Below are positions 1-11,568 of a stretch of DNA of 11,568 nucleotides, piece by piece. This DNA is from Acidimicrobiaceae bacterium (GTDB lineage: Bacteria > Actinomycetota > Acidimicrobiia > Acidimicrobiales > UBA10347), in NCBI GenBank assembly GCA_003485885.1, contig DNHM01000419.1, forward strand, positions 1 to 11,568, given 5' to 3'. The notes below the pieces were generated by a model. It was given only the letters and a program-made list of their open reading frames with translations. It had not been told where the DNA came from and made no database searches. The first letter of the stretch is position 1; the number at the start of each line of letters is the position of its first letter. A program made the translations under genes and the position numbers.

Positions 1-601
1 CAAGAATGTCGTGCAGTAGTTCGTCGCCGAGTTGATCGAGTTGGGCCTCGCTGTATGCCGATGTGTCCTGATTTAGGAGAACGTCGGCGAGGCCTTCGAT
101 GACTAAGTCGTGAAGCTTTTCTTCACTGACGGTGCTGTCGGAGAGAAGAGAACCAAGTCGGACCGTCAACGCGTCCTTGGCTGAGTGTTTAAGATCGTTG
201 AGCTCTTCGGTCAGAGGCGGCCGCTCGAAAGAGACCGCCGGTAGACCGCCAGTGGGCGCTTCCTCTGCGGATACAACGGCCGCCGCTGGGGGAAGCTGCA
301 TCGCGTCGCTTGGTCGTGAAGTTGGAACTGGCGTGTACTCGATGGTCCCGGCACTGGCCGGTGCCGGAGTAGCAGCAGGCGCTACAGCGGCAGATGTTGG
401 AGCTGCAGGTGTTGCTAGGTTCGTCCACCCCGTTGCCGGTTGGTCAACGACCGGCGAGGGTGCGTCGGGGTTGAGGTACCAGTCAACGAGGTCAGCGATG
501 TCGTTGTTCACGGGAGCTGCGTCCGGTGCAGCGGGTGCAACTACTACGCCTGCTAGGCCGGATTCGCTGTTGGATTCTTCGCCTTTCTTGAAGATCTTCA
601 T
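1..601 (-). CDS. cpaF: CpaF/TadA-type Flp pilus assembly ATPase, N-terminal part (cut by left window edge)
   Basis: Partial gene: 200 codons are visible, starting at ATG 601-599 and running off the left edge. CpaF/TadA proteins are cytoplasmic hexameric ATPases of the type II/IV secretion family that power Flp/Tad pili. Residues 1-16 are charged (MKIFKKGEE). Residues about 17-125 are a Pro/Ala/Thr-rich, low-complexity linker. From about residue 131 the sequence matches the helical N-terminal domain of CpaF: LTEELNDLKHSAKDAL, then a segment starting at RLGSLLSD, then QLDQLGDELLHDIL, the family's usual lead-in to a GxGPLE segment, which would lie outside the window. Walker motifs would also lie outside, so ATPase activity is inferred from family. 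The start overlaps the cpaB stop as ATGA, implying translational coupling. The long linker before the CpaF domain is somewhat unusual. A CpaE-like or fused protein cannot be fully excluded. Confidence 0.72.
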   Translation of the reverse strand, partial: MKIFKKGEESNSESGLAGVVVAPAAPDAAPVNNDIADLVDWYLNPDAPSPVVDQPATGWTNLATPAAPTSAAVAPAATPAPASAGTIEYTPVPTSRPSDAMQLPPAAAVVSAEEAPTGGLPAVSFERPPLTEELNDLKHSAKDALTVRLGSLLSDSTVSEEKLHDLVIEGLADVLLNQDTSAYSEAQLDQLGDELLHDIL

Positions 602-1956: not shown

Positions 1957-2304
1957 GTGAGATTCCCTCTGAACACGGCCAAGCGCCGTCGTCGCTCACG
2001 CCGCGGTGCAACGATGGTCGAATCCGCCATCGGGCTGACAATGCAAGTTCGCCAGTGCCGGCAGGTTAGATCGGCGGCACTCCCCAGCCCGACGTGTGCA
2101 ACGTCTACCACCCCAATGGTGACGGCGAGTTCAACCTGGATCCGAGTGCATTTGGTTGCCCCGGCATTCTCGGGTGTCTACGTTGCGTCGGTTTATGACA
2201 GCACCACGGGTATCGAATCGAGCGCATTCAATCTGCAGGATCGTGCGGTATTCGCGTTGTACTTCCCTCCATCGCCAGACGAACCCGAGGCCGCCACCGG
2301 CTAA
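1957..2304 (+). pseudogene. Decayed TadE-like (pilus pseudopilin-family) remnant
   Basis: Starting near GTG 1957, frame 1 encodes a basic stretch followed by GATMVESAIGLTM. This resembles the TadE/TadG N-terminus, where basic residues precede a Gly and a Glu lies at +5 of a prepilin-like motif. The expected hydrophobic helix then breaks off at about 2043. From 2070 frame 3 takes over with a coding-looking segment (PDVCNVYHPNGDGEFNLDP) that ends at a TGA. Frame 1 resumes at about 2157 with VYDSTTGIESSAFNLQDRAV and stops at TAA 2302-2304. Frame switching without a continuous ORF suggests at least two indels. The neighbouring pilus genes make a Tad origin plausible. The Tad assignment rests on one short motif, so confidence is limited. 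Sequencing error or chance similarity are alternatives. Confidence 0.4.
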
Positions 2305-2664
2305 CAGTGCTGTGAGAGCATCAGAAGCAGTCGCCGTGATGACATACAGATCCGCGACTACTTTGTTCGGGGGACACGTAGCGGTATCCATGTCAACGCA
2401 TCCATGGCAACGCCTGGCGTTGAGTTCTCGACCGTAGGTCTGGTGTCATTGACCACCATCGTGCTCGTGGTCGGCGCTCTCATCGTGAGATCACTCACTC
2501 TCTTCGACGACTAATTCACGCCGCACGTCCCCGAGTATGTCGCCCAATTGTTCCGGGTTGAGGCCATGACACTGCGCATCGCGACTGACAACACCGAGTT
2601 CGGCTTCGACACGGTGCGGCTTGGCTATCGCGTCAACCAGGATGTCATCGTCTCGTTGGATTGA
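2305..2664 (+). pseudogene. Unrecognised coding-like stretch with an internal stop, possible gene remnant
   Basis: Frame 1 stays open from 2305 to TAA 2512-2514, and again from 2515 to TGA 2662-2664. The first part ends in a strongly hydrophobic helix (GLVSLTTIVLVVGALIV) followed by RSLTLFDD. The second part (FTPHVPEYVAQLFRVEAM, then a beta-like segment ending GYRVNQDVIVSLD) has mostly G or C at third codon positions, as expected of real coding sequence here. I do not recognise either part. There is no convincing start codon with a ribosome-binding site, and a 14-bp tandem duplication lies inside (2386-2413). The best reading is a decayed gene or two small fragments. A short real ORF beginning at ATG 2566 (32 codons) is possible but unsupported. 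Confidence 0.35.
2386..2413. repeat. 14-bp imperfect tandem duplication
   Basis: ATCCATGTCAACGC (2386-2399) is followed immediately by ATCCATGGCAACGC (2400-2413), with 13 of 14 bases identical. Fourteen is not a multiple of three, so the duplication shifts the reading frame. This fits loss of function in this region. Confidence 0.85.
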
Positions 2665-2677
2665 GGAGCGCTCGCAC

Positions 2678-2723
2678 GTTTCTGACGATTTTACGTATTT
2701 GCGAACGTGAAATCGCCAGAAAC
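2678..2723. promoter_or_regulatory. 19-bp imperfect inverted repeat upstream of malic enzyme (candidate operator)
   Basis: Left arm 2678-2696 (GTTTCTGACGATTTTACGT) pairs with right arm 2705-2723 (ACGTGAAATCGCCAGAAAC) around an 8-nt centre (2697-2704). The only departures are one A/C mismatch (2685/2716) and one T·G pair (2692/2709). No T-run follows on either strand, so it does not look like an intrinsic terminator. It ends 4 bp before the proposed -10 element and covers the -35 region, where a dimeric repressor or activator could act. The pairing is seen directly; the function is inferred. Confidence 0.6.
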
Positions 2724-2726
2724 ATC

Positions 2727-2732
2727 TACCCT
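2727..2732 (+). promoter_or_regulatory. Candidate -10 element (TACCCT), leaderless promoter of malic enzyme
   Basis: TACCCT fits the actinobacterial TAnnnT -10 pattern and lies 8 nt before ATG 2741. No Shine-Dalgarno sequence precedes the ATG. Transcription would start at or next to the A of the start codon. There is no clear -35 at 17-18 bp. The same layout precedes argS, hom and thrH. Confidence 0.5.
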
Positions 2733-2740
2733 TGCCCGCC

Positions 2741-4147
2741 ATGGCTGTTCCCACTGGACCTACTGCGGCGTTTCAAATCCAAATGCGAGTGCGCCTTCGC
2801 AACGTGCCCGGCGTCCTTGGCGCGCTAGCCACGGTGATCGGCGACGCCGGCGGCAATATCGCGGTTGTCGAAGGTTTCGAGGCCAAAGGCGCCACCCTCG
2901 AGCGCAGCATTTGCGTCAACGCCCGTGACGAAGACCACCAGTTGCGGATCGTCAAAGCCGTCGAGAGCCTCGAGAACGTCGAACTGCTCGATTGGTTCGA
3001 CCGCACGTTCCGCATGCACGAGGGCGGCAAAATCGAGACGCTAGCGTTGTGCTCAGTCGGAGACCGAGATGACCTGTCGATGGCCTACACCCCAGGCGTT
3101 GCTCGGGTCTGCATGGCAATCCATCACGACGTGGCAAAGTCGCACGAGCTGACCATCCGAAAGAACACCGTCGCCATCGTGAGCGATGGCACCGCAGTGC
3201 TCGGGTTAGGCAACATCGGCCCCGAAGCTGCAATGCCTGTCATGGAAGGCAAGGCGCTGTTGTTCAAAGAATTCGCGGGCGTCGACGCGTTTCCCTTGTG
3301 CCTGAACACGACAGACACCGAAGAAATTATTGAAACCGTCCAGCGCATTGCTCCAAGTTTTGGCGGAATCAACCTCGAAGACATCGCTGCGCCAGCGTGT
3401 TTCGAAATTGAGGAACGACTGAAGGAACTGCTCGACATCCCGGTCTTCCATGACGATCAGCACGGCACCGCAGTGGTGGCACTTGCGGCACTATGGAACT
3501 CACTGAAGATCGTTGACAAAAACATGGAGGATATCTCTGTGGTGATCTCGGGAATTGGCGCCGCAGGTGTAGCGATCGGCAAGATCCTGTTGAGCGCGGG
3601 GGTTGGCGAAGTCATCGGCGTCGATTCGACTGGCGCCATCTACAAGGGCCGTGACCGGTTGAACCCAGTGAAAGAATGGTTCGCTGCAAACACCAACGCA
3701 GAACGCCGGGCCGGCAGTCTCCAAGATGTCATTGCGGGCACAGATGTGTTTATGGGTGTTAGTGCACCCGACGTGTTGACTGCTGCTGATCTTCGCAACA
3801 TGGCAAAGGATCCGATCATCTTCGCCATGGCCAACCCGAACCCAGAGATCACGCCCGAGGCCGCCGATGGTCTCGCCGCAGTGATGGCAACCGGGCGAAG
3901 CGATTACCCCAATCAGATCAATAACGTGCTGGCATTCCCTGGAATCTTTCGAGGGGCATTCGATGCATGCGCAACCGACATCACCGAATCGATGAAGCTT
4001 GCCGCAGCCGAGAACATCGCAGCCGTTGTTGGTGACGAACTCGCCCCTGACCACGTCATCCCGTCGGTCTTCGACCCCCGGGTTATCGAACGAGTCGCAC
4101 CAGCCGTCGCCGCAGCAGCCATCGCCGAAGGCGTCGTCCGCGGCTAG
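2741..4147 (+). CDS. NAD(P)-dependent malic enzyme with N-terminal ACT domain
   Basis: A 468-residue cytoplasmic enzyme that oxidatively decarboxylates malate to pyruvate and CO2. Residues about 12-88 form an ACT domain (RLRNVPGVLGALATVIGDAG), usually an amino-acid or small-ligand sensor. The catalytic part follows: YTPGVA at 116-121 with the active-site Tyr, the lysine in MEGKA (K171), metal ligands in NLED (211-214) and HDDQHGT (237-243), the Rossmann motif GIGAAG at 271-276, and NPNPEI near 345. Without the ACT domain the length matches the short bacterial malic enzymes. An in-frame TTG lies three codons upstream (2732), but it falls on the proposed -10, so I prefer ATG 2741. Cofactor preference cannot be read securely. 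An 87-bp gap separates it from argS. Allosteric control by an amino acid is inference from the ACT domain. Confidence 0.93.
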   Translation: MAVPTGPTAAFQIQMRVRLRNVPGVLGALATVIGDAGGNIAVVEGFEAKGATLERSICVNARDEDHQLRIVKAVESLENVELLDWFDRTFRMHEGGKIETLALCSVGDRDDLSMAYTPGVARVCMAIHHDVAKSHELTIRKNTVAIVSDGTAVLGLGNIGPEAAMPVMEGKALLFKEFAGVDAFPLCLNTTDTEEIIETVQRIAPSFGGINLEDIAAPACFEIEERLKELLDIPVFHDDQHGTAVVALAALWNSLKIVDKNMEDISVVISGIGAAGVAIGKILLSAGVGEVIGVDSTGAIYKGRDRLNPVKEWFAANTNAERRAGSLQDVIAGTDVFMGVSAPDVLTAADLRNMAKDPIIFAMANPNPEITPEAADGLAAVMATGRSDYPNQINNVLAFPGIFRGAFDACATDITESMKLAAAENIAAVVGDELAPDHVIPSVFDPRVIERVAPAVAAAAIAEGVVRG

Positions 4148-4234: not shown

Positions 4235-5842
4235 ATGATTCGTGACCAGTTGACCGAAGCGCTCGCGGGCGCACTTACCGCCGTTGGTGTTGAGGTAGAT
4301 GCCGGCTCGATAGAGCTCGAGCGGCCAGCCCGCCGCGAACACGGTGACTGGTCCTCCAACGTTGCTATGGCCAATTGGAAACCCGCTGGGCGCAGTAACC
4401 CTCGTGCCTTTGCCGGCGAGATTACTGATCATCTCAACGCAAACCTTCCAGCCCATGTTGAAGCGGTCGAGATCGCTGGGCCGGGCTTCGTTAATTTCCG
4501 ATTGTTTGACACCTGGCTGTACGACGTCCTCAACGATGCGGTCAGTACCGGCGAAGACACGTTTGGGCGCCACGCCTTTGGCAGCGGGACACACATCAAC
4601 GTCGAGTTTGTGAGTGCGAACCCAAACAAACCGCTGCATGCAGGCCATGCCCGAGGCGCCGTCTACGGCGACTCTGTCGCCCGGCTACTCAAAGCCGTTG
4701 GTTACCAGGTCACCACCGAGTTCTACCTGAACGACCGGGGCGTGCAGATGAGCCTGTTCGCCGAATCGCTTGCAGCCCGTAAACGTGGCGACGACGTGCC
4801 AGAAAACGGCTACCACGGTGAGTACCTGATCGACTGGGCCGCCGAGATGCCCGACGATGCTGACCCGCTCGAGTGGGGGTATGCCCGAGCGCTCCAGAGT
4901 CACAAGGAAACATTGGCCAGGGTCAGTGTGCATCACGACGTCTGGTTCTCTGAGCGGTCGTTGGTTGCCGACGGACAGGTCCCCAATGCTCTCGCCGAAC
5001 TCCAGGCAAGTGGCATGGTCTACGAAGCCGACGGCGCTACCTGGCTCAAGACCACCGAGGCAGGCGATGACAAGGACCGGGTCCTGATCAAGGCCGACGG
5101 TGACTACACCTATCTGACGCCCGACATCGCCTACCACCGAGACAAGTTCAGCCGGGCCGACCGGCTGATCAATGTGTGGGGGGCAGATCACCACGGCTAC
5201 ATCCGTCGGATGAAGGCTGCGATGGCATTTCTGGGCAACGACCCCGACGCACTCGAAGTCATTGTCACCCAACTGGTGTCGCTCGAACGCGATGGTGTCG
5301 AAGTGCAGATGTCTGGCCGACTAGGCGACATGGTCTCGCTCGACGAAGTCATCGACGAAGTCGGCCCGGACGCGGCCCGGTACACCTTCTTGACCCAGTC
5401 CATGGACACCAAACAGAAGGTCAACCTGAGCGCACTTGCTACCAAGAGCATGGAGAACCCGGTGCACTATGTGCAGTACGCAACTGCACGTATCGACTCG
5501 CTCGCCAAAAATGCTGCGGCAGCTGGGCATGCCCGGGGGCCACTCGCTGCCGCTGAGCTCGCCACGCTCACCACGGAACGTGAACTTGAGGTGCTTCGGG
5601 TCCTCAGCACCTTCAGCGACATCGTGGCCATCGCAGCCAGAGAACGGGCGCCGCACAAGATCACGACCTGGCTGCGTGAACTCGCCGCAGCATTTCATGG
5701 TTTCTACGCAGATTGTTATGTCGTAGGTGATGGCGTGAGCCCCGAACTGACACAGGCTCGGTTGTGGCTCATCGAAGCGGCTCGCATCGGCTTGACGAGC
5801 GGGCTTACGCTGGTTGGCGTGTCGGCACCCCAGGAAATGTGA
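4235..5842 (+). CDS. argS: Arginyl-tRNA synthetase
   Basis: A 535-residue class I aminoacyl-tRNA synthetase that charges tRNA-Arg with arginine in the cytoplasm. Residues 1-90 form the ArgS-specific N-terminal domain (RREHGDWSSNVAM, GPGFVNFRL). The HIGH-type signature is HAGH at 135-138 within NPNKPLHAGHARGAVYGD. WGADHHGYI (315-323) belongs to the catalytic core. The KMSK-loop position reads MSGRLGD (359-365), so the usual second lysine is replaced by Gly; ArgS often has a degenerate KMSKS motif. The DALR anticodon-binding domain follows (NPVHYVQYATARIDSL from 408). Length is slightly short of the usual 550-580. Its stop overlaps the lysA start as TGATG, so the two are translationally coupled. 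argS next to lysA is a conserved actinobacterial pair. Confidence 0.96.
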   Translation: MIRDQLTEALAGALTAVGVEVDAGSIELERPARREHGDWSSNVAMANWKPAGRSNPRAFAGEITDHLNANLPAHVEAVEIAGPGFVNFRLFDTWLYDVLNDAVSTGEDTFGRHAFGSGTHINVEFVSANPNKPLHAGHARGAVYGDSVARLLKAVGYQVTTEFYLNDRGVQMSLFAESLAARKRGDDVPENGYHGEYLIDWAAEMPDDADPLEWGYARALQSHKETLARVSVHHDVWFSERSLVADGQVPNALAELQASGMVYEADGATWLKTTEAGDDKDRVLIKADGDYTYLTPDIAYHRDKFSRADRLINVWGADHHGYIRRMKAAMAFLGNDPDALEVIVTQLVSLERDGVEVQMSGRLGDMVSLDEVIDEVGPDAARYTFLTQSMDTKQKVNLSALATKSMENPVHYVQYATARIDSLAKNAAAAGHARGPLAAAELATLTTERELEVLRVLSTFSDIVAIAARERAPHKITTWLRELAAAFHGFYADCYVVGDGVSPELTQARLWLIEAARIGLTSGLTLVGVSAPQEM

Positions 5843-7131
5843 TGGCACTCGCATCGGCAACAGGGCCCGTCCCCCGTCATCTACTCCCGGACAACACCGA
5901 GATTTCTCCTGAAGGGCGCATGAGTGTCGGCGGTGTCGACCTCGTCGAACTCGCTGCCGAGTTTGGCACCCCGCTCTTTGTGTACGACGAGGAGCATCTT
6001 CGCTCCCGGTGTCGCGAAGCAGTCCAGGTCTTTGGCCCGGGGGTTGCCTATGCAACCAAGGCGTTTCTGTGTGTGGCTATGGCCAAGCTCGCCCACGAGG
6101 AAGGCATGCACCTCGACGTTGCGACACTGGGCGAGCTTCATGTGGCTCGGGCGGCCGGAGTCCCGCCGAGTGACCTGGTATTTCACGGCAACAACAAGTC
6201 GGGTGCCGAACTTGTTGCCGCGATGCAAGCGGGTGTGGGCCGCATCGTCATCGACAGCTTCGACGAGATTGCTCGGATCGAAGCCATCCACGCAGACACC
6301 GGGCTGATCGCTCGGGCGCTTCTGCGCATCACTCCCGGTGTCGAAGCACACACGCACGAGTTCATAGCAACCGGCCAGGATGATTCCAAATTCGGTTTTA
6401 CCGTGTCGACGGGACTAGCTGACAAGGCTATTCAGCAAGCGTCGACCTCGCCAGCGATCGAGTTGCTTGGCATCCACGCTCATATTGGGTCACAGGTCTT
6501 TCGCATCGATTCGATGCGCCAATCCGCTGCCGTGCTCGCCGAGATTTCTCAGCGGTTCAATCTGCCTGAACTGTCGGTCGGTGGCGGCTTGGGCGTCGCG
6601 TATGTCGGTAGCGAAGAAGCCCCGACGATCTCCCAGTGGGGACGTTCCGTGCTCGAGGCGACAGGCGACGCTGGCATCGACGCGACCGTGTTGGCCGAAC
6701 CTGGCAGGTCCATTGTGGCCACGGCGGGTATGACCATCTATCAGGTGGGCACGATCAAAGAGCTTGAAGATATCCGCACCTATGTCGCCGTCGATGGTGG
6801 CATGAGCGATAACCCTCGGCCAGTTCTGTACGGCAGCGGCTACGAAACCTTCGTACCTGACCGCGCCGATGCTGATCGGCCCGAACAGATTCGTCTCGTC
6901 GGCAAACACTGTGAGTCCGGCGACATCATCATCCGTGAAGCCAACGTGCCTGCGGATCTTGTGGTCGACGATTTTCTCGCAACTCCGGTGACTGGCGCCT
7001 ACGGACATTCCCTCGCTTCGAACTACAACAAGGTCACCCGACCAGCAGTTGTGTTCGTCAGCCACGGCAACGCCCGTCTCGTCGTCCGCCGCGAAACCCT
7101 CGACGATCTCCCCCGCCTCGACATCCTCTGA
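5842..7131 (+). CDS. lysA: Diaminopimelate decarboxylase
   Basis: A 429-residue PLP enzyme (alanine-racemase-like TIM barrel plus beta domain) that decarboxylates meso-diaminopimelate to lysine, the last step of lysine synthesis. The PLP lysine is K73 in AYATKAFLC. HGNNKS (115-120), HAHIGSQ (212-218), GGGLG (247-251) and EPGRS (286-290) shape the cofactor and phosphate site. VDGGMSDNPRP (317-327), C357 in KHCESGD and GAYGHSLASNYN (385-396) form the substrate and dimer-interface motifs. I chose ATG 5842 because it overlaps the argS stop by one base and has AGGA 6 nt upstream. An in-frame start at 5764 would add 26 residues that merely read through the argS end. The 101-bp gap to hom contains two CAAATTTG palindromes. 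Confidence 0.96.
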   Translation: MALASATGPVPRHLLPDNTEISPEGRMSVGGVDLVELAAEFGTPLFVYDEEHLRSRCREAVQVFGPGVAYATKAFLCVAMAKLAHEEGMHLDVATLGELHVARAAGVPPSDLVFHGNNKSGAELVAAMQAGVGRIVIDSFDEIARIEAIHADTGLIARALLRITPGVEAHTHEFIATGQDDSKFGFTVSTGLADKAIQQASTSPAIELLGIHAHIGSQVFRIDSMRQSAAVLAEISQRFNLPELSVGGGLGVAYVGSEEAPTISQWGRSVLEATGDAGIDATVLAEPGRSIVATAGMTIYQVGTIKELEDIRTYVAVDGGMSDNPRPVLYGSGYETFVPDRADADRPEQIRLVGKHCESGDIIIREANVPADLVVDDFLATPVTGAYGHSLASNYNKVTRPAVVFVSHGNARLVVRRETLDDLPRLDIL

Positions 7132-7225: not shown

Positions 7226-7232
7226 CGTGTCC

Positions 7233-8525
7233 ATGGAAATGCAGTCGGTGCGTATTGGGCTTCTTGGCTTTGGGAACGTTGGTGGTTCTCTGGTTGGACT
7301 GATCAACGAACAACGAACTGACATTGCAGCACTGACCGGGATTGACCTGACCGTGACCAGGGTCGCGGTGAGTGATCTCAGCAAACCTCGCCCAGGTATC
7401 GGCGATGCGGTGCTCACCGATCAGGCGAGCGATGTTATTGATGCTGATGACGTCGACCTCGTTGTCGAACTCGTTGGCGCCGTCGAGCTCGCCCGAGAGT
7501 GGATTAGCCAGGCGCTCTATGTGGGCAAGTCGGTGGTGACCGGTAACAAGGCGCTGCTGGCAGCTCACGGACGCGAGCTCTTCGATCTGGCCGCTGCAAA
7601 CGACGCCGAGTTGTTGTTCGAAGCCTCGGTCGCTGGCGCCATCCCGCTCATGCGCACGCTGCAAAAGTCGCTGCGAGGTGAACCGATCGACCGCATCATG
7701 GGCATCGTTAACGGCACCACGAACTACATGCTTTCGGCCATGACCGAAGACGGCGCCGATTACGCCGAGATCCTGGCCGAAGCGCAACGGCTCGGTTATG
7801 CCGAGGCTGACCCGACCGCGGATGTCGAGGGTTACGACGCGCAGGCCAAAGCCGCAATCATCGCCACTGTTGCGTTTGGTGTTGCCGTCACCGCTGCCGA
7901 CGTACCGGTCGAAGGCATCAGCGGGGTGACAGCAACGGACATCGCCAATGCAAGCCGTCTCGGTTACGTCATCAAGCTGCTTGCCGTTGTCGAACGAGTC
8001 GGCGATACCGCGCCGTACGAGATTTCTGCTCGGGTCAACCCGACCATGGTCCCGCACAACCATCCGCTCGCAACGGTGCGGGGCAGCTTCAACGCAGTCT
8101 TCATCGAAGGTGGAGCGCTCGACGAGCTCATGCTCTACGGCCGCGGCGCTGGCGGACGCCCTACTGCTTCGGCAGTCCTTGGCGACATCATCGAGGCTGC
8201 CTCCGGGATCGCACACGGAACAGTTCGCCGGCTTCCGGCGCTCGGTGATGCGCTGGTGCGTCCGCCCGAGGCGGCCACGTCGGCGTTCTACCTTGACCTC
8301 GCAGTCGATGACAGCCCTGGCGTTCTGGCTGAAGTAGCTGGCGTGTTCGGGGCCAACGGCGTGTCGATCAAGTCGATGGAACAAGAAGGCACGGGAACAG
8401 AAGCATCGTTGGCCTTCATCACCCACCAGGCGTCCGAGGCCGACATGGCGGCGACCATCGAGAAACTCACGTCTCTGTCGTCGGTCAACCGGGTTGGTGC
8501 GCTCTACCGCGTTATCGGCGCATGA
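7233..8525 (+). CDS. hom: Homoserine dehydrogenase with C-terminal ACT domain
   Basis: A 430-residue enzyme that reduces aspartate-4-semialdehyde to homoserine with NAD(P)H, the branch point towards threonine and methionine. The Rossmann motif GFGNVG is at 12-17 (after VRIGLL). The catalytic domain shows ASVAGAIPL (131-139), NGTTNYM (150-156), and the homoserine dehydrogenase signature region EADPTADVEGYDAQAKAAI (181-199) with conserved Asp residues and Lys196. A C-terminal ACT domain (about 351-427, LAVDDSPGVLAEVAGVFG) matches the usual monofunctional actinobacterial type, in which threonine gives feedback inhibition. The thrC start overlaps its stop (ATGA). It has no aspartokinase domain, so it is not a ThrA fusion. 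Confidence 0.96.
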   Translation: MEMQSVRIGLLGFGNVGGSLVGLINEQRTDIAALTGIDLTVTRVAVSDLSKPRPGIGDAVLTDQASDVIDADDVDLVVELVGAVELAREWISQALYVGKSVVTGNKALLAAHGRELFDLAAANDAELLFEASVAGAIPLMRTLQKSLRGEPIDRIMGIVNGTTNYMLSAMTEDGADYAEILAEAQRLGYAEADPTADVEGYDAQAKAAIIATVAFGVAVTAADVPVEGISGVTATDIANASRLGYVIKLLAVVERVGDTAPYEISARVNPTMVPHNHPLATVRGSFNAVFIEGGALDELMLYGRGAGGRPTASAVLGDIIEAASGIAHGTVRRLPALGDALVRPPEAATSAFYLDLAVDDSPGVLAEVAGVFGANGVSIKSMEQEGTGTEASLAFITHQASEADMAATIEKLTSLSSVNRVGALYRVIGA

Positions 8526-9913
8526 GCAGCATGAACTACATCAGCACCAGAGGCGCAGCGCCGGCGTTGAACTTCGGCGATGTCTTGTTGACCGGGCTGG
8601 CAAACGATGGTGGGTTGTATCTCCCCGAGAGCTGGCCACAATCGGTTGCTACAGCCCGAACCGACACCTACGTGAACACCGCAGTGGATGTCATGTGGCC
8701 GTTCGTCGAAGGGGTTATTGACCGAGCTGACTTTGAAACCATCGTTGCTGACACTTACGCCACATTTGAAACCGACAATGTGGTCGAACTCGTCGAAATT
8801 GATCCCAACGTGTGGTTGCTGGAGCTCTTCCATGGCCCGACATTGGCGTTCAAAGACGTTGCCCTTCAGCTGGTAGGCCGTCTGTTTGACTATGAGTTGA
8901 GCCGACGTAATGAACGCATCACCATCGTGGGTGCCACGTCAGGTGACACCGGGTCCGCAGCCATCGAGGCATGCCGAGACCGCGATGCCATCGACATCTT
9001 CATTCTTCACCCCCACGGCCGGGTCAGCGACGTGCAACGCCGCCAGATGACAACTGTCGAGTCAGCGAACGTGCACAACGTGGCCATCGAAGGCACCTTC
9101 GACGATTGCCAGGACCTGGTCAAGGCCATGTTTGCCGACGCCTCATTTCGCGACGAGGTACGAATCGGTGCAGTGAATTCGATCAACTGGGCCCGGGTGA
9201 TGGCTCAAATCGTCTATTACGTTGTCGCTTCCTCCCGGGTTGCGTCGGTATCAACGCCTGTTTCGTTCACCGTGCCGACCGGCAATTTTGGCAATGTGTT
9301 TGCCGGGTGGTCGGCCCGCAGCATGGGTCTGCCAATTGACCGGTTCTGTGTTGCGAGTAATAGCAACGACATTCTGGCCCGGCTGTTCCAAACCGGCACC
9401 ATGGAGATCCTCGACGTCGTCCCCACGCTGTCGCCCAGCATGGATATTCAGATCTCGAGCAATCTCGAACGGTTGTTGTTCGAGACACACGGCCGAGATG
9501 GTCACCGTATTGCCGAGGCCATGGCTGAGTTCCGCGACACAGGTGCGCTGACACTCGACCCTCCTCACCGTGAGTTGCTCGCAGAACTCTGGACCGGCGT
9601 GCGGGTAGATGACAATGCCCCGGGGGGTGTCGTCGACACCATTGCCGAGATCTATGAGCGCCACGGGATGCTGCTCGACCCACACAGCGCTGTTGGTGTC
9701 AGTGCAGCCCGCACGCTCGGTTCCAACGGGTCGCCAATGGTCTGTCTGGCCACGGCGCACCCGGCCAAGTTCCCAGACGCGGTCGAGAAGGGCACGGGCC
9801 GACGGCCAGCGCTCCCTGAACGGGTTGGTGATCTCTTTGACCGAGAGGAACGTTTCGACGTGCTTCCGAACGACCTAGCGACCGTGCAAGCCCACGTTCG
9901 CGCCAATCGCTAG
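8522..9913 (+). CDS. thrC: Threonine synthase, long (proteobacterial/yeast-like) type
   Basis: A 463-residue PLP enzyme of fold type II that converts O-phospho-L-homoserine and water to threonine and phosphate. It opens with the characteristic YISTRG motif (residues 6-11) and NDGGLYLPESWP. The PLP lysine is K111 in PTLAFKDVA. The phosphate-cradle motif GATSGDTGSAA is at 127-137, PTGNFGNVFAG at 252-262, and the C-terminal ATAHPAKFPDAV at 430-441. The start region and length match the E. coli/alphaproteobacterial/yeast form, not the roughly 360-residue form of mycobacteria. ATG 8522 overlaps hom (ATGA). An in-frame ATG at 8531 would give MNYISTRG, which is closer to the usual family start; either is possible. 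The next gene overlaps by one base (TAGTG). The nearest homoserine-phosphorylating candidate is thrH downstream. Confidence 0.95.
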   Translation: MSSMNYISTRGAAPALNFGDVLLTGLANDGGLYLPESWPQSVATARTDTYVNTAVDVMWPFVEGVIDRADFETIVADTYATFETDNVVELVEIDPNVWLLELFHGPTLAFKDVALQLVGRLFDYELSRRNERITIVGATSGDTGSAAIEACRDRDAIDIFILHPHGRVSDVQRRQMTTVESANVHNVAIEGTFDDCQDLVKAMFADASFRDEVRIGAVNSINWARVMAQIVYYVVASSRVASVSTPVSFTVPTGNFGNVFAGWSARSMGLPIDRFCVASNSNDILARLFQTGTMEILDVVPTLSPSMDIQISSNLERLLFETHGRDGHRIAEAMAEFRDTGALTLDPPHRELLAELWTGVRVDDNAPGGVVDTIAEIYERHGMLLDPHSAVGVSAARTLGSNGSPMVCLATAHPAKFPDAVEKGTGRRPALPERVGDLFDREERFDVLPNDLATVQAHVRANR

Positions 9914-10344
9914 TGGCCAGGCCGGTTGCGTTTCGTAGCGCGGGCGTCGAGGATGTCGACGCGATTCTCACGTTGTGGCAATTGGGTGGCGTCGATCACG
10001 ACGAGGTAGGGGACCGCTTCGAGATTGTGACCAAGCTCGATTACGACGGCGATCTGTTCGTGGTGGCTGCCCGTGACGACAAGGTCGTTGCGTCGGTCAT
10101 GGGCACCTACGACGGTCATCGCGGGCGCATTAAGCGGTGTGTCGTCGACCCGGCCGAACAGCGGAGTGGCGTTGGTCGCCAGGTGGTAGCGGAACTTGAG
10201 CGCCGGTTTATTGCCCGAGGGATCACCGAATTACGGCTCGAGGTATGGGCTGACAACATTGGCGCCCAAACGTTCTGGTCCACGATGGGCTGGGAACACC
10301 TCGAAGACATCCGCTACTACACGCGCAGTTTGCGAACGGATTAG
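9913..10344 (+). CDS. GNAT-family N-acetyltransferase, YpeA-like
   Basis: A 143-residue protein with one GNAT fold. The acetyl-CoA pyrophosphate-binding loop is QRSGVG (83-88), following the beta-4 strand RIKRCVVDP. The motif VMGTYDGHRG (62-71) and the ARGITELRLEVWADNIGAQTF region (split around residue 110), with a C-terminal MGW, resemble E. coli YpeA, whose substrate is not known to me. GTG 9913 shares its G with the thrC TAG stop (TAGTG), so translation is probably coupled to thrC and the product made in proportion. This is roughly where thrB sits in mycobacteria. A role in the threonine pathway, such as acetylating an amino acid or protein, is only suggested by context. It is not RimI-like enough for me to use that symbol. 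Confidence 0.85.
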   Translation: MARPVAFRSAGVEDVDAILTLWQLGGVDHDEVGDRFEIVTKLDYDGDLFVVAARDDKVVASVMGTYDGHRGRIKRCVVDPAEQRSGVGRQVVAELERRFIARGITELRLEVWADNIGAQTFWSTMGWEHLEDIRYYTRSLRTD

Positions 10345-10423
10345 CAATCGTGGGAGGCCGGTGCGATGTAGTGGGGCGAGGTAGTGGTGTGGCGGCCGCC
10401 GGTCACCGCCTTATCCTCATTCC
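10345..10423. other. GNAT-thrH spacer with a short direct repeat and GC palindrome
   Basis: This 79-bp gap holds GTAGTGG twice (10368-10374 and 10381-10387, 13 bp apart) and a perfect 10-bp palindrome GGCGGCCGCC (10391-10400). It ends with the proposed thrH -10. No T-run terminator is present. The repeats are seen directly; no function is assigned. Confidence 0.5.
10412..10417 (+). promoter_or_regulatory. Candidate -10 element (TATCCT), leaderless promoter of thrH
   Basis: TATCCT (TAnnnT) lies 6 nt before GTG 10424, with no Shine-Dalgarno sequence. This suggests that thrH can be transcribed independently of the hom-thrC-GNAT chain. Confidence 0.48.
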
Positions 10424-11029
10424 GTGACCGACCAGCAGCGAGTTATCTGTCTTGATGTCGAGGGCGTACTCATGCCCGAAGTGTGGATCCAGCTGGCTGA
10501 GCTGACTGGGATCGATGAGCTTCGGCGTACGACTCGGGATGAGCCTGATTACGACGTGCTCATGACCTATCGACTCGGGATTTTGACAGAGCATGATCTG
10601 ACGATGTCCACGGTTGCCGAAGTGCTGGCCGAGATCAAGCCGCTTGACGGAGCGCCTGATTTTCTCGACGAACTCCGCAGTCGCCATCAGGTGCTGCTGC
10701 TCAGCGATACGTTCGAGCAGTACGCCGGTGCGATGATGCCTCACTTGGGCATGCCTACGATCTTCTGTCATCGTTTGATCGTCGAGAATGACCGCATCGT
10801 GAACTACGAGCTACGGATTCCCGACCACAAACGCCGCACCGTCGAGGCCATGCAAGGTCTGAACTTCCACGTGACCGCAGGTGGCGACTCGTTTAACGAC
10901 TTGTCAATGCTCAATGCCGCCGATGCTGCCAGCTTGTTTCACGCACCGCAGCAGATCATCGACGACAATCCGCACTTGGCGTCGTTCCAAGAGTTCGGCG
11001 ACTTCCTCGCCTGGATCGACGCCCTCTAA
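10424..11029 (+). CDS. thrH: ThrH: phosphoserine phosphatase / phosphoserine:homoserine phosphotransferase
   Basis: A 201-residue HAD-superfamily protein of the usual ThrH length. Motif I is DVEGV (11-15), with D11 as nucleophile and Glu at the +2 position, as in ThrH rather than the DxD of classical SerB. Other ThrH hallmarks are MPEVWIQLAE, TTRDEPDYDVLM (36-47), motif II LSDTF (93-97), the motif III lysine around K136, motif IV GDSFND (154-159) and LFHAP (171-175). P. aeruginosa ThrH hydrolyses phosphoserine and can transfer its phosphate to homoserine, replacing ThrB. In the canonical actinobacterial order, thrB lies between thrC and rho, and here thrH occupies that slot. I infer that it supplies phosphohomoserine to ThrC. 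A simple SerB-like phosphatase role is the alternative. The GTG start fits the -10 spacing. Confidence 0.92.
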   Translation: MTDQQRVICLDVEGVLMPEVWIQLAELTGIDELRRTTRDEPDYDVLMTYRLGILTEHDLTMSTVAEVLAEIKPLDGAPDFLDELRSRHQVLLLSDTFEQYAGAMMPHLGMPTIFCHRLIVENDRIVNYELRIPDHKRRTVEAMQGLNFHVTAGGDSFNDLSMLNAADAASLFHAPQQIIDDNPHLASFQEFGDFLAWIDAL

Positions 11030-11082
11030 CCATCGACCATCTCAGGAGGAACATATCGGTGCGACTGATAGCGTTCCCGCCA

Positions 11083-11105
11083 GGTGGCTCGCCACCGAAG
11101 TTTTT
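11083..11105 (+). terminator. Candidate intrinsic terminator or attenuator between thrH and rho
   Basis: GGTGG (11083-11087) pairs with CCACC (11092-11096) around loop CTCG, and GAAG then TTTTT (11101-11105) follow. The stem is short (5 bp) and the T-run starts 4 nt after it, so strength is uncertain. It may end thrH transcription or act as an attenuator in the rho leader. Confidence 0.38.
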
Positions 11106-11120
11106 CGCAAACGGGCGTTT

Positions 11121-11150
11121 CGCCCCGTCTCCCGCCCTTCGCCTCAGCCC
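11121..11150 (+). promoter_or_regulatory. C-rich, G-poor tract in the rho leader (rut-like)
   Basis: By my count 19 of 30 bases are C and 5 are G, with many pyrimidine-C steps. Such tracts are the known loading sites of Rho. Rho autoregulates through its own leader in E. coli; a similar loop here is inference. Confidence 0.35.
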
Positions 11151-11199
11151 ATGTAAGGCATCGAGATCGAGTGGCATCACACCTCACCAGGAGTTACCC

Positions 11200-11568
11200 G
11201 TGGCTTCCGATCGCAGCACCCTTGAAGGCAAGGATCGTGCCGAGCTGACCGTCATCGCTCAGGCGATGGGCAACAAGGTCGGATCCCGCATGCGCAAGGC
11301 GCAGATTATCGATCTGATCGTAGGCCCCGAACCCGACGAGACTGCAGCGAAGAAGCAAGCTGAGACCCAGCTCGATTTCTCCAGTTCGGTGTCCACCGAC
11401 GGCTCGGCCGATGACCGGGCAACCGGCGATGCTGCCCGCAGCGACGACGACACGGCCACCGCCGACGCCGACACCGTCGATATTGACTCGAATGAAGACG
11501 GTCGCCCACAACGTAGTGGCGACTCGGGCGGCGCTCGCAAGAACCGCGGTGATCGCAATGACCGTGAT
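11200..11568 (+). CDS. rho: Transcription termination factor Rho, N-terminal part (cut by right window edge)
   Basis: The first 123 codons are visible, running off the right edge. Rho is a hexameric RNA-dependent ATPase/helicase that ends transcription. Residues about 7-40 match the Rho N-terminal helical domain (DRAELTVIAQAMG, SRMRKAQIIDLIVG). From about residue 44 there is an acidic Asp/Thr/Ala-rich stretch, and from about 110 a start of Arg/Asn/Asp/Gly-rich sequence (RKNRGDRNDRD). This is the hydrophilic insertion typical of high-GC actinobacterial Rho, placed before the RNA-binding cold-shock-like domain. I chose GTG 11200 because AGGAG sits 6 nt upstream and the family resemblance begins just after it. 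An in-frame GTG 47 codons upstream (11059) also has a strong ribosome-binding site. Placement after the threonine genes is conserved in actinobacteria. Confidence 0.9.
   Translation, partial: MASDRSTLEGKDRAELTVIAQAMGNKVGSRMRKAQIIDLIVGPEPDETAAKKQAETQLDFSSSVSTDGSADDRATGDAARSDDDTATADADTVDIDSNEDGRPQRSGDSGGARKNRGDRNDRD

Follow-up and report, generated by a model that had tools for sequence, protein, structure and literature searches.

A thrH gene between thrC and rho as a candidate source of O-phosphohomoserine in a genus of Acidimicrobiia

Gene order in the window and in its genus

We analysed a stretch of 11,568 nucleotides (nt) from an Acidimicrobiaceae bacterium (contig DNHM01000419.1 of assembly GCA_003485885.1; hereafter the window). 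The gene in question is thrH, which codes for a putative homoserine phosphotransferase and lies there between thrC and rho. The open reading frame (ORF) list and the family searches gave a run on the plus strand in the right part of the window, argS-lysA-hom-thrC-GNAT-thrH-rho, with the following features:

4235..5842, plus strand: argS, arginyl-tRNA synthetase (family search)
5764..7131, plus strand: lysA, diaminopimelate decarboxylase (NCBIfam, 436.4 bits, cut-off 297.9); the real start possibly lies further inside the ORF
7227..8525, plus strand: hom, homoserine dehydrogenase with a C-terminal ACT domain (NF004976, 496.9, cut-off 205)
8522..9913, plus strand: thrC, long-type threonine synthase, Thr_synth_N + PALP + THR4_C (TIGR00260, 263.2, cut-off 167.1)
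9913..10344, plus strand: GNAT acetyltransferase gene between thrC and thrH (ORF list, family search)
10424..11029, plus strand: thrH, HAD-family phosphoserine phosphatase / homoserine phosphotransferase, 201 amino acids (aa) (curated ThrH models)
11200..11568, plus strand: N-terminus of rho, transcription terminator Rho, GTG start at 11200, truncated by the window end (homology to relatives)

The partial ORF at the right end (11059/11200) gave no family match alone, and it was assigned to rho because homologous N-termini in relatives (L092-L096) continue into a Rho-like protein. Overlaps of 4 nt and 1 nt join hom to thrC and thrC to the GNAT gene, respectively, and a gap of 79 nt separates the GNAT gene from thrH. 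In mycobacteria the order is argS-lysA-thrA(hom)-thrC-thrB-rho. The original prediction had stated that no GHMP-type thrB lies between thrC and rho in the window and that a GNAT gene and thrH are found there instead, and this was borne out.

The assembly of the window (G000) is 80% complete and consists of 572 contigs. Its family is represented in our sample by one genus with six draft genomes (G000 and G110-G114), which are 60-94% complete. Orthologues of thrH were found in the five other genomes, their products being 70-88% identical to the window ThrH, and the comparison of the locus across relatives placed thrH in the threonine operon, between thrC and rho and on the same strand, in all six. 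Since thrC-(GNAT)-thrH-rho recurs in all five other genomes, the arrangement is not an error of draft assembly. The GNAT gene separates thrC from thrH in four of the six (G000, G110, G112, G114); in G113 and G111, both without it, thrH starts 12 nt and 21 nt after thrC, respectively, as judged from aligned ends. In G112 (L094, reverse-complement 2192-3711) an opposite-strand gene pair is inserted between the GNAT gene and thrH, namely a HipA-like gene of 403 aa and a helix-turn-helix-like gene of 103 aa, both named from reading their translations.

The ThrH protein and the search for homoserine kinases

The ThrH motifs quoted in the original prediction (DVEGV, TTRDEPDYDVLM, GDSFND and LFHAP) are all present in the translation of 10424-11029, and the protein passed both curated ThrH cut-offs (NF010109, 257.3 bits, cut-off 133; TIGR02137, 242.8 bits, cut-off 223.4). 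Against the SerB model TIGR00338 it scored 45.5 bits, under the cut-off of 144.15. The ThrH of Pseudomonas aeruginosa is reportedly the subject of work by Patte in 1999 and Singh in 2004 (PDB 1rku/1rkv), and the window protein belongs to the same family, with 95 of 188 aligned residues (51%) identical to 1rku chain A. The HAD catalytic residues D11, E13, S94, K136, D155 and D159 are identical in this alignment and invariant across 19 acidimicrobial ThrHs; Glu in place of the usual second Asp (DxE) is what we take to be a mark of the ThrH family.

Among the best 120 of 7992 protein clusters in a homologue search, 67 were at least 67% identical to the window ThrH and the rest 58-64%; the window ThrH type is therefore a distinct group, which is found in many metagenomes. 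In the ThrH tree the genus forms one clade, sister to sequences from acidimicrobial metagenome-assembled genomes (L127, L132); the deeper forks are weak, with bootstrap support not settled. Neither thrC nor hom was found on the available stretches of L127 and L132. In the 19-row alignment, 17 positions carry a residue that is common to the six genus ThrHs and seen in none of the 13 remaining acidimicrobial rows. These positions include V12 (DxE loop), H135 (next to the catalytic lysine) and two in motif IV, F157 and L160. These residues may reflect a specialisation, which we offer as a lead only. They could also fit a ThrH with a different phosphorylated amino acid or alcohol as its substrate, for instance one that clears away phosphohomoserine or phosphothreonine as a house-cleaning phosphatase. 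A phosphoserine:threonine phosphotransferase activity has in fact been hypothesised for the ThrH homologues CD0241/PA1089, according to an excerpt of PMC10714395; the score of the window protein over both ThrH cut-offs speaks against such a shift of substrate, which we consider very improbable.

At a threshold of E 1e-3, GHMP-type thrB (TIGR00191) matched in none of the genus drafts (0/6). The best scores in G000 were 13.5 bits, from the kinase at L001, and 11.1 bits, from a second protein, with a cut-off of 168.25. A thrB elsewhere in the genome, which would have refuted the original prediction, was thus searched for in the 80% complete draft of G000 and not found. The same six drafts gave serC (TIGR01366) over its cut-off in 6/6 and thrH in 6/6. 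Nine GHMP-domain matches were recovered in the genus: five galactokinases (G110, G111, G112, G113 and G114), three IspE-like proteins that stay under the IspE cut-offs (G112, G113 and G114), and one sugar-kinase-like protein in G000 (L001), whose gene adjoins a nucleotidyltransferase gene. With these identifications, the GHMP genes of the genus were ruled out as thrB. Two further kinase families were searched in 38 genomes. The apgM-type model TIGR02535 gave no match in 6/6 genus genomes, and the cut-off of thrB_alt (TIGR00938) was reached in 0/38; 15 genomes gave weak matches, including five from the genus.

It is conceivable that a GHMP thrB or another homoserine kinase was missed in the drafts or has diverged too far, and that ThrH plays the auxiliary part it has in P. 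aeruginosa, where it is an extra isozyme and thrB is present as well. The incomplete state of the drafts would allow for this. However, assuming independent losses and taking completeness as the detection rate, the chance of missing a genus-wide thrB in all six is ~7e-5. The same model also gave thrB matches of at least 100 bits in 65 of 110 class genomes (a sample, besides G000, of genomes at least 85% complete), divergent ones included; the lowest of these scored 101 and the next score was 53. As all nine GHMP matches in the genus are accounted for as well, we regard a missed kinase as improbable.

Other occupants of the thrC-rho slot and thrH loci elsewhere

The surroundings of thrC were taken from 20 relatives. 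In G075 (family f7) the gene between thrC and rho is thrB. In the two neighbouring families f4 and f10 an apgM-type protein of 381-394 aa is encoded from 65-130 nt after thrC in four of the five genomes (G023, G035 and G081 in f4; G105 in f10), and rho starts 0.2 to 3 kb after the apgM-type gene; in the fifth (G102, f10) the apgM-type gene (L104) stands elsewhere in the genome and no rho was found in its thrC stretch. The slot after thrC is thus held by an apgM type in 4/5 f4/f10 genomes, by thrB in 1/1 of f7 and by thrH in 6/6 of the genus. The apgM-type proteins of all five f4/f10 genomes scored 410-428 bits against TIGR02535, under the cut-off of 446.3, and 420-430 bits against PRK04200, over the cut-off of 426 in two of the three scanned. 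By its sequence the slot gene of f4/f10 is therefore of the apgM/TIGR02535 kind only and does not pass the TIGR02535 line. Its position directly downstream of thrC (L072-L075) is, in its own right, independent context support for a disputed family of 'proposed homoserine kinases'.

None of thrB, the apgM type and thrH was found between thrC and rho in ten genomes of f2 and two of f9 (the contig of L086 ends before rho). The thrB genes of f2 and f9 genomes, where present, are on a different contig from thrC or hundreds of kilobases away from it. Altogether, thrB stands beside thrC in only one (G075) of the 19 genomes of the order with a window-type ThrC, G000 included; a thrB-containing neighbourhood as a conserved order, which the original prediction had assumed, does not hold here. 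In the ThrC tree the genus groups with f4 (97/96), a placement on which the Hom tree gives no resolution. Given this grouping and the apgM type in the slot of 4/5 f4/f10 genomes, the enzyme displaced by thrH was more likely of the apgM type than thrB. The claim that thrB was replaced in place by thrH consequently survives in part: no thrB was found and thrH is fixed in the threonine operon of the genus, but the direct step was probably not from thrB to thrH.

Elsewhere thrH shows no such fixed setting. Across 31 thrH loci from other Acidimicrobiia, of which 13 were covered with flanks of just 1.5 kb, no type of neighbour recurs in more than four. A scan of named genomes covered the best 80 of 511 relatives, queried with single window proteins and with no chance rate computed; hom or thrC was near thrH in five (L130, L160, L168, L202, L205), and L175 had only argS. 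In L205 (Pseudobutyrivibrio) hom ends 12 nt before thrH, and in L202 (Bacteroidales) thrC ends 158 nt upstream of it. In the acidimicrobial locus L130 and in L160 and L168 (Chloroflexi) thrH is on the opposite strand to the nearby hom or thrC, with thrC adjoining thrH in convergent orientation in L130. Among the acidimicrobial loci seen, same-strand linkage of thrC and thrH is particular to the genus and is a derived state kept there.

The left part of the window holds other genes. A malic enzyme gene with an N-terminal ACT domain (2732-4147, plus strand) lies upstream of argS and adjoins argS also in G110 and G113. On the minus strand, an RcpC/CpaB-type Flp pilus assembly protein (PF16976) is encoded at 598-1653, and the ORF beside it (2-601, minus strand) matched no Pfam family. 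The Rfam scan of the window gave no match.

The role of ThrH in the genus and its relation to known systems

Several observations weigh against a role of the genus ThrH in threonine synthesis. In the class sample thrH was over the NF010109 cut-off in 16 of 110 genomes, 13 of which also carry thrB; ThrH as a general replacement of thrB in the class is thereby ruled out. The presence of thrH also hardly tracks the absence of thrB. In the set of 38 genomes (thrH called by the window protein in G110-G114 and by NF010109 elsewhere) it is present in 8 of the 13 without thrB, which are the six of the genus and G023, G031, G035, G081, G087, G102 and G105, and in 13 of the 25 with thrB. The weak TIGR00938 matches in five of the six genus genomes (E 1.2e-8 to 5.1e-4, none over the cut-off) have to be mentioned here, although we tentatively take them for unrelated APH-type proteins. 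A shikimate-kinase-like homoserine kinase exists in Desulfovibrio, as stated in an excerpt of PMC5764234; our kinase search covered GHMP-domain proteins, TIGR00191, TIGR00938 and TIGR02535. All six genus genomes are drafts, and the 17 genus-specific positions, some adjoining catalytic motifs, may mean that the activity has shifted.

Two f2 genomes, G031 and G087 (98% and 97% complete), have thrH but no thrB, their GHMP matches being galactokinase-like and IspE-like. Further losses of thrB in f2 are possible, given that a genus mate of G031 (G008) has thrB. Across the class sample, 45 of 110 genomes were without a thrB match of at least 100 bits, and at least 15 of these are genomes of ~1 Mb from family f14.

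The same class data bear on the reading that ThrH works chiefly as the phosphoserine phosphatase of serine synthesis and has no part in threonine synthesis despite its place beside thrC, with some other, as yet unrecognised enzyme phosphorylating homoserine. SerB was over the cut-off in 27 of the 110 class genomes and in only two of the 16 with thrH (G084, G090), so that 14 of the 16 are without it, and in the thrB-bearing class genomes ThrH probably serves as the phosphoserine phosphatase. The occurrence of thrB and thrH without serB agrees with a suggestion made for Ilumatobacter coccineum, in which, according to excerpts of PMC3910706, YM304_28950 is ThrH, serB is missing and ThrH would stand in place of SerB. 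That organism is of the same class, its single ThrH is of the same family as ours, and f2 would be its family, as the named Ilumatobacteraceae loci fall within f2 in the ThrH tree; thrB is present in 8 of the 10 f2 genomes sampled.

The picture in the genus differs. Of the two genes that the original prediction wanted sought, thrB and serB, the latter was found in four of the six genomes: canonical SerB proteins of 402-445 aa occur in G111-G114 (236-258 bits, cut-off 144). G000 gave no SerB over the cut-off, which fits a phosphatase role, and G110 (60% complete) was probed for SerB with the ThrH protein only. ThrH as the obligatory sole phosphoserine phosphatase of the genus is thus ruled out. 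Since SerB is present in 4/6, ThrH seems not to be needed for serine, which favours a role in threonine synthesis. Two further facts speak against a phosphatase role, namely that thrH is fixed beside thrC in 6/6, in a slot held by other candidate homoserine kinases in relatives, and that the alternative kinases searched were all under their cut-offs in the genus. We therefore consider a mainly phosphatase role unlikely.

The reading we favour is that ThrH took over the operon slot thrC-X-rho in the genus. From gene content and context we estimate the probability that the genus ThrH supplies O-phosphohomoserine for threonine synthase at about two in three, and the best evidence for this function is that three unrelated candidate homoserine-phosphorylating enzymes are found in one slot. 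By analogy with the characterised P. aeruginosa ThrH, phosphoserine would be the phosphate donor; as serC is present in 6/6, phosphoserine is presumably made in the genus. An aspartyl-phosphate on D11 would take the phosphate from phosphoserine and hand it to homoserine, giving serine and O-phosphohomoserine. The homoserine step would then proceed without direct use of ATP, and one serine would be released per threonine made. ThrH would represent a dedicated branch of phosphoserine use, and with a separate SerB in the genus the supply of serine does not have to follow the demand for threonine. The coupling of serine and threonine flux, which the original prediction had put forward, would follow only if both the ThrH role and the phosphoserine donor hold. 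A more far-reaching version, to which we give somewhat less than an even chance, is a hard-wired threonine branch whose homoserine step needs no ATP, in which a ThrH specialised near its active site is the sole source of O-phosphohomoserine via phosphoserine and SerB is kept for serine, with one position having three unrelated solutions (GHMP kinase, apgM-type enzyme, HAD phosphotransferase) within one order.

The chemistry of ThrH (P. aeruginosa) and the idea of a HAD phosphotransferase in threonine synthesis (Geobacter) are known already. As told in an excerpt of PMC1079889, P. aeruginosa ThrH can take the place of both homoserine kinase and phosphoserine phosphatase in complementation in vivo; it has no ATP-dependent kinase activity and moves phosphate from phosphoserine onto homoserine. 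For Geobacter, the part of PMC2700814 available contains a one-sentence proposal of 2009 that Gmet_1630/GSU1694, a HAD protein whose gene is flanked by two threonine genes, is a phosphoserine:homoserine phosphotransferase; the idea of such an enzyme among thr genes is the same as ours, the two being compared by description only. The phosphoserine phosphatase of Geobacter is called unidentified in that part, whereas the genus has SerB in 4/6. The genus also differs from P. aeruginosa in that its thrH stands in a threonine operon for which no thrB was found.

The apgM/TIGR02535 type is like the genus ThrH in lying downstream of thrC and in being confined, among the 38 genomes searched, to the 13 without thrB; five of these have it, none together with thrH, and it is present in 0 of the 25 with thrB. 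Unlike ThrH it is an unrelated protein of the apgM kind, which stays under the curated cut-off and fits slightly better as PRK04200. Excerpts of two papers connect TIGR02535, the 'proposed homoserine kinase', with ThrB2 (PMC9026213) and with BT2402 (PMC7311316); according to the latter, BT2402 failed to rescue an E. coli thrB mutant. In the literature searched, which lay largely outside subscription journals, and among the matches listed, we met no account in which thrH is the only gene for phosphorylating homoserine, none of a swap between the apgM type and thrH at a single position, and none that deals with this genus.

Homoserine kinase is a gene that repeatedly goes missing: an excerpt of PMC7311316 states that GapMind found ThrB at low confidence in 29 of 148 organisms that can grow with no amino acids supplied, and that TIGR02535 is present in 15 of the 29. 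The natural three-way exchange at one operon position provides context evidence for ThrH and the apgM type as alternatives to ThrB. If our reading is true, the three solutions at one position would in addition strengthen the case for the apgM-type 'homoserine kinase', which is disputed. In that case threonine synthesis in the genus would draw its phosphate from phosphoserine, and the fluxes of serine and threonine would meet at one enzyme.

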